Below, one piece after another: positions 2,893 through 15,874 of a DNA stretch of 37,110 bases; the first letter of the stretch is position 1, and every line of letters begins with the position of its first letter. The notes under the pieces were generated by a model that saw nothing but the letters and a program-made list of their open reading frames with translations, did not search any database and was not told the origin of the DNA. Position numbers and translations under genes: made by a program. Location: contig JAJPJQ010000022.1 in assembly GCA_021324155.1 (NCBI GenBank), forward strand, positions 94,450-131,559, given 5' to 3'. Origin of the DNA: Pseudomonadota bacterium (lineage in GTDB: Bacteria; Desulfobacterota; Binatia; UBA9968).

Positions 2893-2980
2893 CGACAACC
2901 ACGGCGGCCTCGCGAAAAAACGGAACGAAGAGAAAAAATGATGGAACCTTTCTCTCTCTCCCGGAGAGGCCGGTTGAAAA

Positions 2981-3136
2981 GCCTTAGGCAGGTCTCCTGG
3001 CTTGGACTTTGTCTACTCGCCGCGCCTTCCCATCCCTCGACTACGCTCGGGACAGTGGCTTGAGCTTGCGGCTTTCGGCGCCCTTACAGTGGCGGGACCG
3101 CGCCGGATTCGCACCGGCTTCCCTGAAGCCTAAAGC
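2981..3136 (-). promoter_or_regulatory. Cobalamin (B12) riboswitch 2, upstream of tonB
   Basis: On the minus strand, P1 pairs GCTTTAGGC (3136-3128) with GCCTAAGGC (2989-2981), nine pairs with one G-U. Core elements follow in order: GAAGCCGGTGCGAATCCGGC, GGTCCCGCCACTGTAA, AAGCCACTG, GGGAAGGCGCGGCGAG and the B12 box AGCCAGGAGACC (3002-2991). The aptamer ends about 90 nt before the tonB start. The leader between them can form a CTCTC/GAGAG hairpin and then contains two T-rich runs, so either premature termination or translational control is possible. The variable arm between GCCACTG and GGGAAGG is lengthened by a 20-nt segment around 3033-3054 that resembles a dispersed intergenic repeat. Confidence 0.95.
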
Positions 3137-3145
3137 GAAAGGAGA

Positions 3146-3172
3146 AATATATCGCCGATAGAAAGTTGTCAA
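3146..3172 (-). promoter_or_regulatory. Probable promoter of the tonB riboswitch transcript
   Basis: Minus strand: TTGACA (3172-3167, perfect -35) and TATATT (3151-3146, 5 of 6) separated by a short 15-nt spacer. The predicted start site near 3139 lies just 3 nt before the first paired base of riboswitch 2. The -35 overlaps the stop codon of the upstream AEC gene. Confidence 0.55.
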
Positions 3173-12498: not shown

Positions 12499-13893
12499 GT
12501 GAAATATCTCGCGATTTGTGAGGACGACCTGCTTTTTCAGTTTATGCGGAAGCTTGCGACGAAGCGCAGCGAGGTCCTCTTCATCGTAGAGGATCTCGAC
12601 GCGGCGAGGCGTATCCGCCGCCGGGGCGGCAGCAGCCAGGCCGGCCCCCTCGACAGCGAAACCACCTACCAGAAGGCGCACCTGGAGCGGGCCGATCAGG
12701 TGATTCTCTTCGTCCGCGATACCGAGCTTTGGGAGCGGGTCTACACTCAAATCCGCAGCCTGCGACCGGATACGTCCATCCTGTCGCTCGCCTCGGGCAA
12801 AAAATCCATCGGCGGCCATAAAGACAAGCTCCTGAGCCAGCTTCCGCTGGAGGACATTTTCGAAGAATTCTGCGCGCCGCAGCTCCTCGATACCGTCAAC
12901 CGGCGGCGCGTCGAAATGATCCGCGGGCTGTTTCGCGAGAAGGATAAAATTAACATTTTGCTGCAGCACGATCCCGATCCGGACGCGATCGGCAGCGCGC
13001 TCGCGCTGCGCGAGCTTCTGGGACGAAACCGCGCGACCACGCCGATCGTCACCTTCGGCGAGGTCACCCGGCCGGAGAATCTCGCGATGATCCGCCTGCT
13101 CGAAATCCAGATCGAGCGGGTGAACCCCGCCGATCTCCACGGCGACGGCGCCAAGCTCGCGCTCGTCGACGTGCAGCCGCCGTACTTCGAGCAGCCGCTC
13201 GGGCGCGTCGATCTCGTCGTCGACCATCATCCCAAGCGGGCGCCGTTCACCGCGCGCTTCGCCGACCTCCGCACCGATTACGGCGCGACGTCGACCATCT
13301 TCACCGACTATCTCCGCGCCGCCGGCATGGAGCCTTCGCAGCGCCTCGCCACGGCGCTGCTCTACGGGATCAAGACCGACACGCTTTTTCTCGAGCGCGG
13401 CAGCCATATGATCGACGTCGAGGCGTTCAGCTTTCTTTACCCCTTCGCCAACCGCGCGCTTATCGCCAAGATGGAGCGGCCGGCGCTGCCGCGCGAGGAC
13501 CTGGAGGCGCTCGGCCGCGCGCTCAGCCGCCTGCAGCTCGAGGACGGCGTCGCTGTGATTCACATGGGCGAGGTCAAGCGCGAAGATGTTATCCCGCAGA
13601 TGGCGGAGTTCTCGCTTCAGATCGAAGGCGTCGAGTGGGGCATCGTCTCCGGGCTTTCGGACAATCGCGTCGTCATCTCGGCGCGCAATGTCGGATACGT
13701 AAAGAGCGCCGGCGATATCATGAAACGCCTCTACGACGACATCGGCAGCGCCGGCGGCCACCGCGCAATGGCGAAGGCGGTCATTCCGGTCGCCCGCTTC
13801 AAGGAGAAATTCGGCGAGGTCAGCGAGAAGGCGATCCGCGACGCGATCGTGCCGCTGATCACGCAGCGCGAAGACGAGAACGGCCGTGGCTGA
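12499..13893 (+). CDS. DHH-family phosphoesterase with N-terminal RCK/TrkA-N-like domain
   Basis: The 464-residue protein joins two modules. Residues 1-125 look like a TrkA-N/RCK nucleotide-binding domain (MKYLAICEDDLLFQFMRKL, DQVILFVRDTELWERVYTQIR). Residues 150-430 are a DHH/DHHA1 phosphoesterase: HDPDPDAIGSAL (157-168), D224, VDHH (241-244), YGATSTIFTDYL, GIKTDT with D294, and GGH (419-421). All Mn-binding and DHHA1 substrate positions appear intact, as in NrnA-type nanoRNase/pAp phosphatases or c-di-AMP phosphodiesterases. It starts at GTG 12499 and overlaps archease by 8 nt. The link with archease and RtcB suggests a job in RNA-end or nucleotide metabolism; the substrate is open. Confidence 0.88.
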   Translation: MKYLAICEDDLLFQFMRKLATKRSEVLFIVEDLDAARRIRRRGGSSQAGPLDSETTYQKAHLERADQVILFVRDTELWERVYTQIRSLRPDTSILSLASGKKSIGGHKDKLLSQLPLEDIFEEFCAPQLLDTVNRRRVEMIRGLFREKDKINILLQHDPDPDAIGSALALRELLGRNRATTPIVTFGEVTRPENLAMIRLLEIQIERVNPADLHGDGAKLALVDVQPPYFEQPLGRVDLVVDHHPKRAPFTARFADLRTDYGATSTIFTDYLRAAGMEPSQRLATALLYGIKTDTLFLERGSHMIDVEAFSFLYPFANRALIAKMERPALPREDLEALGRALSRLQLEDGVAVIHMGEVKREDVIPQMAEFSLQIEGVEWGIVSGLSDNRVVISARNVGYVKSAGDIMKRLYDDIGSAGGHRAMAKAVIPVARFKEKFGEVSEKAIRDAIVPLITQREDENGRG

Positions 13894-14314
13894 GCCGCGA
13901 CGCGGCTTCCGCGAGATCGATCATACCGCCGACGTCGGCATCGAAGCCGAGGGCGCGACGCCCGCGGAGCTCTTCGCCGCCGCTGCGCAAGGATTTTATT
14001 CATTGATCGCCGATCCTGCCGGCGTCGCGGCGAAGGAAGAAATTTCCGTCGCCGCGTCCGCTTCCGGCTGGGATGAGCTGCTTCAGGCGTGGCTCTCCGA
14101 ACTGCTCGCGGAGTTCAATCTGCGCGGCTTTGTCGGAAAAGACTGCGCCATCACCCGCATTGAAGCCGCGCGCGTGCATGGTACAGTCAAAGGAGAGCCG
14201 CTCGATCTAACGCGCCATCGCTTTCATACCGAGATCAAGGCCGTCACCTATCACGAGTTGAAGGTCTGGCAGGAAGGCGGCGCCTGGCGCGCGCGCGTGA
14301 TCTTTGACGTATAG
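13886..14314 (+). CDS. Archease, RtcB activator
   Basis: The 142-residue protein carries the archease signatures: FREIDHTADVGIEAEG at the N-terminus (metal-site His/Asp), an aromatic helix (AELFAAAAQGFYSLIAD), and EIKAVTYHELKVWQEG near the C-terminus ending in FDV. Archease helps RtcB form the ligase-guanylate intermediate and turn over. Start GTG 13886 overlaps the DHH gene (GTGGCTGA). rtcB follows after a 108-nt gap filled by a palindromic repeat. The pairing agrees with the known functional partnership. Confidence 0.93.
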   Translation: MAEPRRGFREIDHTADVGIEAEGATPAELFAAAAQGFYSLIADPAGVAAKEEISVAASASGWDELLQAWLSELLAEFNLRGFVGKDCAITRIEAARVHGTVKGEPLDLTRHRFHTEIKAVTYHELKVWQEGGAWRARVIFDV

Positions 14315-14422: not shown

Positions 14423-15874
14423 ATGTCGGCCGACGAGATCAACATCACACGCATCAGCGATTATCTCTGGGAGATTCCCCGCACCGGCGGCATGCGAGTG
14501 CCGGGGCGCGTTTATGCGACGGAGAAGCTTTTTTCCGTGCTAAAGGAAGACAACAGCCTCAAGCAGGTAATGAACGTGGCTCATCTGCCCGGTATCGTCG
14601 GCTATTCGCTCGCAATGCCCGACATCCATTGGGGCTACGGCTTTCCGATCGGCGGCGTCGCCGCGATGGACGCGAGCGACGGCGTCGTCTCGCCGGGCGG
14701 CGTCGGCTACGACATCAATTGAGGCGTCCGTCTGGTGAAGACCGGTCTGGTCTTCGAGGATCTCCGAAAGCTGATTCCTCACATCGTCGAGGCGCTCTTC
14801 GCCGTGATCCCCTCCGGCGTCGGCGGCGAGGGCGCGATTCCAAAGCTAACGAAAGACGCAGAAAAGCGCCTATTGCGCGACGGCGCGAAGTGGGCGGTCG
14901 CAAACGGCTACGGCCGCGCGGAAGATCTGGAGCACACCGAGGAGGGCGGCTGCCTCCGTGGGGCCGATGCCGAATTGATCAGCGAGCGCGCGCTCGAGCG
15001 CGGCCTCAAGCAGGTCGGCACGCTGGGCTCCGGCAATCATTTTCTTGAGATCGGGCGCGTCGATGAAATCTACACGCCGCAGATCGCGAACGCGCTCGGC
15101 GTCTTCGAAGGCCAGGTCGTCGTTCTGATCCACAGCGGCTCGCGCGGTCTGGGTTATCAAACGTGCGAGGACTTTCTCCGCGTGATGAACAATGCCATGA
15201 CGAAATACGACATCCGTCTTCCCGACCGTCAGCTCGCCGCGACGCCGATCCGCTCAGCCGAAGGGCAGGATTATCTCGCCGCGATGGCGGCGGCGGCGAA
15301 TTACGCCTGGGTCAACCGCCAGGTGATCATGAGCCTCGCCGAAAAAGCATTCTTGAAAGCGCTCGACATCTCTCCCGCGGCGCTCGGCTTCTCGCTCGTC
15401 TACGACGTCTGCCACAACATCGCCAAGATGGAGGATCACGTCGTCGACGGCAAAAAGCGCCGCGTCTGCGTGCACCGCAAGGGCGCGACGCGCGCGTTTC
15501 CGCCGCATCATCCGCAGATCCCGAGCGATTACCGCGAGATCGGTCAGCCGATTCTCATTCCCGGCGACATGGCGCGCTATTCGTATCTGCTGGTCGGGGC
15601 CGAGGCCGCAATGGAGCAGACTTTCGGCAGCACCTGCCACGGCGCGGGGCGCGTCATGAGCCGCGCGCAATCGAAGAAGCATAGCCAGGCGATCAACATC
15701 GACCGCGAGATGGAGCGGCGCGGCGTCGTCGCGCGCTACCAGGGCCGCGCGACGATGGCCGAGGAGATGCCGCACGCCTACAAAGACGTCGCCGACGTGG
15801 TCGAGACGATGGATCTCGCCGGCGTCTCGAAGCGCGTCGCGCGCCTGCGGCCGGTCGGCGTCGTAAAAGGCTGA
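14423..15874 (+). CDS. rtcB: RtcB RNA ligase, selenocysteine-containing (TGA100 = Sec)
   Basis: One frame of 484 codons is interrupted only by TGA at codon 100. Read through, it gives a 483-residue RtcB, the usual length. The start ([21 protein letters not shown]) is canonical. The TGA falls in [15 protein letters not shown], exactly where RtcB has the metal-binding Cys (DINCGVR). Ligands are D97, Sec100, H206 (GSGNHF), H237 (IHSGSRGLG), H331 (YDVCHN) and H406 (CHGAGR, the guanylylated His). Their spacing equals that of Pyrococcus D95/C98/H203/H234/H329/H404. A SECIS-like hairpin follows the TGA. RtcB joins 2',3'-cyclic phosphate and 5'-OH RNA ends using GTP and Mn. Ordinary gene calling would split it into a 99-residue protein and a start at GTG 14735, or call it a pseudogene. 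Confidence 0.9.
14720..14722 (+). other. In-frame UGA, predicted selenocysteine codon of rtcB
   Basis: TGA stands between AAT (Asn99) and GGC (Gly101) of rtcB; the conserved residue at this position in RtcB is the metal-ligand Cys. No other in-frame stop occurs in the 484 codons, and protein-level conservation continues without loss on both sides. This argues against decay or a frameshift. Confidence 0.85.
14726..14761 (+). promoter_or_regulatory. Predicted bacterial SECIS element inside rtcB
   Basis: GAAGACC (14737-14743) and GGTCTTC (14749-14755) pair perfectly around the 5-nt loop GGTCT (14744-14748), with one further U-G pair below. GTCC (14726-14729) with GGAT (14758-14761) can form a lower stem. 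The loop GG starts 21 nt after the TGA, in the range known for bacterial SECIS elements, and GGUCU matches the apical loop sequence of E. coli fdhF bound by SelB. The hairpin lies in coding sequence, as bacterial SECIS elements do. Confidence 0.82.

Follow-up and report, generated by a model that had tools for sequence, protein, structure and literature searches.

A likely selenocysteine codon at the metal-bridging cysteine position of bacterial RtcB RNA ligase genes

The DNA analyzed here, a stretch of 37,110 nucleotides that we call the window, carries on its + strand an rtcB gene (14423–15874) for a 3'-phosphate/5'-OH RNA ligase of 483 residues. Enzymes of this kind join RNA ends bearing a 2',3'-cyclic phosphate (3'-phosphate) to ends bearing a 5'-OH. 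The frame holds a single internal stop, the TGA of codon 100 (14720–14722), and the gene's own stop codon is likewise TGA (15872–15874). The next gene upstream on the same strand (13886–14314; PF01951, E = 3.4e-40) encodes archease, a known activation factor of RtcB (PMC3973293), and from this gene order an archease–rtcB operon is predicted. The start of the archease gene is overlapped by a + strand gene (12499–13893) for a DHH/DHHA1 protein, which also matches TrkA-N weakly. Elsewhere in the window, two cobalamin riboswitches on the − strand (1846–2013, 90.7 bits; 2970–3148, 102.8 bits) flank a TonB_C gene (2035–2898, − strand) on either side.

We found that the window protein, translated with TGA as selenocysteine (Sec, U), matches the Pfam RtcB family (PF01139) over residues 48–483 (E = 3.7e-170), and that RtcB chains from the PDB align with it in phmmer over residues 8–483, with E values down to 9.8e-171. 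In these alignments residue 100 falls on Cys98 of Pyrococcus horikoshii RtcB (1uc2/4dwq group), the metal-bridging Cys that corresponds to Cys122 of the human enzyme. Likewise, the metal ligands Asp97 (14711–14713), His206 (15038–15040), His237 (15131–15133) and His331 (15413–15415) lie opposite D95, H203, H234 and H329, and His406 (15638–15640), which we take to be the guanylylated His, lies opposite H404. In the P. horikoshii enzyme, Cys98 contacts each of the two Mn ions (PMC10630183). Thus, the initial annotation, which had described an rtcB intact except for a TGA at the codon of the Mn-ligand Cys and had matched the remaining ligands to those of Pyrococcus, is borne out on both points by alignment to the structures. 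The protein has the sequence of the family, its Asp and three His ligands and its guanylylated His, but not its metal-bridging Cys. If UGA100 is read as Sec, the exchange is a conservative one, and we would class the protein as a Sec variant of RtcB rather than as a standard Cys RtcB.

A TGA in a single gene could stem from faulty sequencing or assembly, or could be a nonsense mutation in a gene that is decaying, and the window's genome (G000; 4.8 Mb, 98% complete) is indeed a draft in 53 contigs. In 145 genomes, the window's own included, an RtcB match was present in 79, and in seven of the 145, all from one family (G000, G004, G011, G012, G014, G017 and G021), there was a full-length RtcB with a TGA, in each case exactly at codon 100. 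Six further members of the family (G001, G002, G003, G005, G006 and G013) have a close homolog in which this codon is readable, and there it is TGC or TGT; the match in G010 begins at residue 101, at base 3 of its contig, and so leaves codon 100 outside. Lower-ranking RtcB matches in the 145 genomes, for which no locus was fetched, were without a reported stop except in two cases. One, the TGA in the second RtcB of G006 (G006:C686), was rejected because it reflects a broken frame elsewhere in the gene, and that copy has Cys at the site; the other, in G138, lies within a weak match of 80 residues. G004 has, in addition to its TGA copy, a second, stop-free, full-length RtcB that is 50% identical (G004:C46:39243-40655).

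The same codon recurred outside the family. In a scan of contigs covering the best 80 of 591 relatives, TGA was present at codon 100 in one (L106) and Cys in the other 79. The genome of L106 (G145) comes, very probably, from a different phylum than the window, since the 395 genomes drawn from its phylum include none of G000–G144; because the 395 include Desulfatibacillum (L083), a Thermodesulfobacteriota bacterium (L047) and a Deltaproteobacteria bacterium (L050), we identify this second phylum as Thermodesulfobacteriota/Desulfobacterota. The exact motif with TGA matched 33 of these 395 genomes, a set that includes G145 and was counted whether or not an RtcB is present, while a reversed-pattern control matched none. 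We fetched loci for 30 of the 33 (G305, G451 and G487 were left out), and all 30 proved to be RtcB. Their identity with the window protein in the matched part is 53–58%, codon 100 is TGA in each, and there is no further stop; one of them, L221, is the site already found as L106. A single pattern match in a viral contig (L247) was rejected because it was not RtcB. Searches that tolerate the stop thus took in relatives of the window and sampled one further phylum; elsewhere, inspection covered the best 80 loci of a single scan.

Altogether, codon 100 is TGA in 37 distinct loci (seven from the window's family and 30 from the second phylum), which for brevity we call Sec loci, and TGC or TGT in 102 other inspected loci, the Cys loci (L025 and L043 among these are apparently one contig counted twice). 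None of the 37 Sec loci has another in-frame stop in the matched stretch or an insert at the codon-100 site in the alignments, and all share one stretch of 13 protein letters. Asp97, His206 and His237 are present in 37/37 Sec and 102/102 Cys loci, as is Asn205 in all 139, and His331 and His406 are present in the 137 loci that reach them (35/35 Sec loci, 2 of the 37 being too short, and 102/102 Cys loci). Two marks of a selenoprotein gene are therefore found, a TGA aligned with a Cys conserved in homologs and TGA-containing homologs in other organisms, here in two phyla. Constraint extends past the TGA: dN/dS was 0.04–0.22 both before and after it in 11 chosen Sec pairs, although one synonymous distance was saturated and several were high. 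Since TGA recurs at precisely codon 100 in 37 loci of different genomes, with no other stop, with low dN/dS downstream and with the ligands kept, chance, sequencing error and a dying gene are refuted to the point that we give them practically no weight. The search for a TGA aligned to this Cys in homologs, proposed in the initial annotation, thus had a clear outcome.

We next consider whether the organism could decode UGA as Sec. The initial annotation had called for a search of the same genome for selA, selB, selC and selD, and the whole set was found: SelA (603 bits), SelB (412 bits) and SelD (392 bits), whose genes stand side by side on contig C16, and a tRNA-Sec (74.8 bits) with anticodon UCA. 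The selD gene (L242, G000:C16:68287-69216, − strand) has its own in-frame TGA followed by AAK; UxxK is the SelD motif in the 2026 catalogue of prokaryotic selenoproteins (PMC13188914). Reading the genome's 43 Rfam tRNA matches and the outcome of the tRNA-Sec search with ARAGORN gave 45 distinct tRNA sequences, and tRNA-Sec is the only one with the anticodon UCA; the anticodons of tRNA-Trp and tRNA-Cys are CCA and GCA.

In the 25 genomes of the family, tRNA-Sec was over the cut-off in 16 and SelB in 20. All seven genomes with a Sec RtcB had tRNA-Sec, compared to two of six with a Cys RtcB (one-sided Fisher P = 0.021, for draft genomes of related species; relatedness among the sequences inflates all P values given here). 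SelB over the cut-off did not separate the two groups in the family (5/7 Sec; 4/6 Cys genomes): of the Sec-RtcB genomes without it, G011 had no match and G021 a partial match below the cut-off. Two genomes, G003 and G013, have both tRNA-Sec and SelB, yet their RtcB has Cys. In the second phylum, tRNA-Sec was present in 27 of the 33 pattern-matched genomes, and the other six (G192, G259, G285, G424, G451 and G519) all had SelB (E ≤ 3.4e-110). There tRNA-Sec was not enriched with TGA-containing rtcB (27/33 vs. 311/362, P = 0.60), but co-occurrence is uninformative in this phylum because 338 of the 395 genomes have tRNA-Sec.

These results bear on the idea that UGA100 is read through as Cys, Trp or another residue, by a suppressor tRNA or near-cognate decoding, rather than as Sec. 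UGA-reading tRNAs that insert Cys do exist, but tRNA-Sec is the sole UCA anticodon found in this genome, UGA terminates other genes of the window and rtcB itself, and every family genome found with the TGA form also has tRNA-Sec; as described below, a hairpin goes with this form as well. We thus regard such readthrough as very improbable.

The hairpin lies downstream of the codon, with an 8-bp stem (14736–14743/14749–14756, + strand) and a GGUCU loop (14744–14748) that begins 21 nt after the UGA; numbered from the U of UGA as 1, the stem is 17–24/30–37 and the loop 25–29. In the published model, the core of a bacterial SECIS element (bSECIS) has a loop of 3–9 nt, a stem of 4–16 bp, a G in the first two loop positions, a spacing of 16–37 nt from the UGA and a minimum free energy of at most −7.5 (PMC13188914), and the window's hairpin (14736–14756) has all of these, the energy included. 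In the second phylum the loop is at the same place and the outer stem is the same in most sequences, while the inner stem occurs in two registers, the commoner of which has one bulged base.

To what extent does the hairpin belong to the TGA form? In a fixed register, at least six of the eight pairs formed in 31 of the 35 distinct Sec sequences (the other four, L228, L238, L240 and L241, have five) compared to 15 of 101 distinct Cys sequences. Even among the 25 Cys sequences matched to the Sec form by Ser/Thr and Gly/Ser at the loop codons, at least six pairs formed in only nine (Fisher P = 5e-5). When the partner strand was shifted by 1 to 3 bases, no more than 8 Sec sequences still paired to this extent, and we observed compensating changes of pairs, for instance from A-U to C-G at 19–35 and from A-U to U-A at 22–32. 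The loop, stem, G and spacing of the bSECIS core are present in 35/35 Sec sequences and also in 62/101 Cys sequences; with the energy cut, as computed here, the counts become 32/35 and 17/101 (L106 falls short of the cut). Thus, pairing in a fixed register, compared with Cys copies, separated Sec from Cys, whereas energy compared with shuffled sequences did not: the folding energy was ordinary against dinucleotide shuffles (z = 0.03 for the window), and synonymous codon shuffles gave P < 0.05 in only one of eight Sec sequences, and also in the Cys copy L014 (P = 0.14 for the window). Since synonymous shuffles seldom differ, the coding sequence explains much of the stability of the hairpin. A U at loop position 27 was somewhat more frequent in Sec sequences (23/35) than in the matched Cys sequences (10/25), but not significantly so (P = 0.067). 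Homologs with a TGA elsewhere and no hairpin, which the initial annotation had named as grounds for refutation, did not turn up: in the matched frames TGA occurs only at this Cys, and the hairpin is present in most.

Taken together, a TGA that recurs at a single codon in two phyla, the retained ligands, the constraint on the protein, the decoding genes and the hairpin make it very likely, as judged from sequence, that UGA100 is read as selenocysteine and that a functional RtcB carries Sec there; this judgment does not extend to what benefit Sec may bring. What we infer is Sec insertion itself and the activity of the enzyme and, with less assurance, a gain in tolerance to oxidation. SelB would bring Sec-tRNA to UGA100, guided by the hairpin and served by the organism's own SelA/SelB/SelD/tRNA-Sec system. 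Sec100 would then replace the otherwise invariant Cys and bridge the two active-site metal ions by a selenolate instead of a thiolate. The enzyme would presumably be a normal RtcB ligase, activated by archease and dependent on GTP and Mn.

Sec insertion is also compatible with a different purpose for the codon. Termination competes with UGA decoding in bacterial selenoprotein genes, and UGA100 might act as a switch that frequently stops translation, to give a product of 99 residues, and allows the full-length ligase only when selenium is plentiful; the second, stop-free RtcB of G004 might then work without selenium. The usual archease–rtcB order, however, fits a normal gene. Where at least 600 bases of upstream sequence were available, archease was matched a short way before rtcB, on its strand, in 34 of 36 Sec loci and 72 of 101 Cys loci. 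We consider a switch improbable, and a rival to Sec insertion in an ordinary ligase only as regards the purpose of the codon.

We also examined how the Sec and Cys forms are related. A quick maximum-likelihood tree of 137 rows, which leaves out two short rows, places the 35 Sec rows in two distinct regions where Cys rows also occur, and it requires at least eight changes between Cys and Sec, five of which are forced by starred branches. This history may consist of several gains, or of an early gain with losses. One Cys copy, L014, is sister to a Sec copy, L016 (support 98), and keeps the hairpin with 8/8 pairs, while neither tRNA-Sec nor SelB passes the cut-offs in its genome, G006; L014 seems to have changed from Sec to Cys recently and to have retained the signal. 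The hairpin is also kept in the Cys copies L010 of G002 (8/8 pairs) and L011 of G003 (7/8 pairs). A SECIS-like hairpin was noted in L092 and L102 as well, and these two, together with L014 and L010, are possibly fossils of former Sec copies.

These exchanges raise the question of whether Sec has any special use here, or whether Cys and Sec replace one another with little effect in Sec-rich lineages, which would be a rival on the benefit of Sec and not on its insertion. The interleaving of Sec and Cys copies on the tree, the Cys copies that keep a hairpin beside Sec relatives (such as L014) and the Cys form in G003 and G013 despite their tRNA-Sec and SelB all fit near-neutral exchange. On the other hand, Sec insertion is costly and slow, and Sec has nonetheless been kept over long distances in both groups. 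We regard near-neutral exchange as a real contender, though one that we would not expect to prevail.

Our leading guess, which we still hold short of even confidence, is that Sec confers tolerance to oxidation through reversible redox behavior. Many Desulfobacterota are anaerobes, which disfavors oxygen as the sole reason for Sec. The guess follows from the fact that this Cys is the oxidation-sensitive point of RtcB, together with the statement that selenols resist irreversible oxidation (PMC13188914). Specifically, Cys98 was oxidized in aerobically purified P. horikoshii RtcB (PMC10630183), oxidation of this Cys costs metal binding and activity (PMC13247085, PMC10653391), and animal cells have PYROXD1 and thioredoxin to protect or restore it (PMC12263435, PMC10653391). 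A benefit through metal affinity or metal choice seems to us unlikely. The initial annotation expected altered metal affinity, redox sensitivity and selenium dependence, and these are predicted effects. The fuller picture, in which a selenolate bridges the two-Mn site of a non-redox ligase, Sec is kept for reversible oxidation or for changed metal binding, and RNA repair is tied to the supply of selenium, is a tentative one.

The initial annotation was not aware of RtcB among the standard bacterial selenoprotein families, and this agrees with Table 1 of the 2026 catalogue, in which RtcB is absent from the 119 prokaryotic families (PMC13188914). RtcB is also unmentioned in the main texts of the deep-Sep paper (PMC12013277) and of a 2022 review (PMC9312934), and the NCBIfam matches of the window protein carry no selenoprotein label. 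A literature search for RtcB or RNA-splicing ligase together with selenocysteine gave, among the matches listed and judged partly by title, only an engineered protein, although the groundwater survey of Deng and colleagues may list RtcB. As far as searched, a natural Sec RtcB in two bacterial phyla would thus be a new selenoprotein family; by the family names in the catalogue's table, no RNA ligase or RNA-processing enzyme is among the 119. If our reading is correct, Sec as a ligand in the binuclear site of a non-redox enzyme widens the uses of selenium, RNA repair in these uncultured bacteria depends on selenium, and a change of the residue itself answers an oxidation problem that animals solve with PYROXD1. 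Natural Cys/Sec pairs at RtcB's weak point for oxidation would allow the effects of selenium on metal binding, oxidation and recovery to be compared directly. Moreover, gene callers likely split or lose rtcB genes with a TGA, which would hide RtcB from surveys of RNA repair.

Compared with known systems, the protein resembles Cys RtcB (P. horikoshii, Thermus, human RTCB), with which it shares family, length, metal ligands, the guanylylated His and, by gene order, the archease partner, and from which it differs in having a UGA-coded residue in place of Cys98/Cys122. Sec has been placed at the identical residue before, in an engineered P. horikoshii RtcB made in 2014. The result is a caution: Cys98 is an intein splice junction in this protein, and with Sec in its place a bond close by was cleaved (PMC4150793). 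That protein was man-made, with a UAG codon and an EF-Tu-dependent tRNA (PMC4150793), whereas the form described here is natural, uses UGA with a hairpin and occurs in many genomes. As we propose for RtcB, the active-site metal of formate dehydrogenase FdhA and of [NiFeSe] hydrogenase is coordinated directly by Sec (PMC13188914), but these are redox enzymes with Mo/W or Ni, while RtcB, with its two Mn-type ions, is a phosphotransferase without redox chemistry. Finally, PYROXD1 and thioredoxin deal with the same oxidation-sensitive residue in human RTCB (PMC12263435, PMC10653391); there partner proteins protect or repair the Cys, while here the residue itself appears to have been changed.
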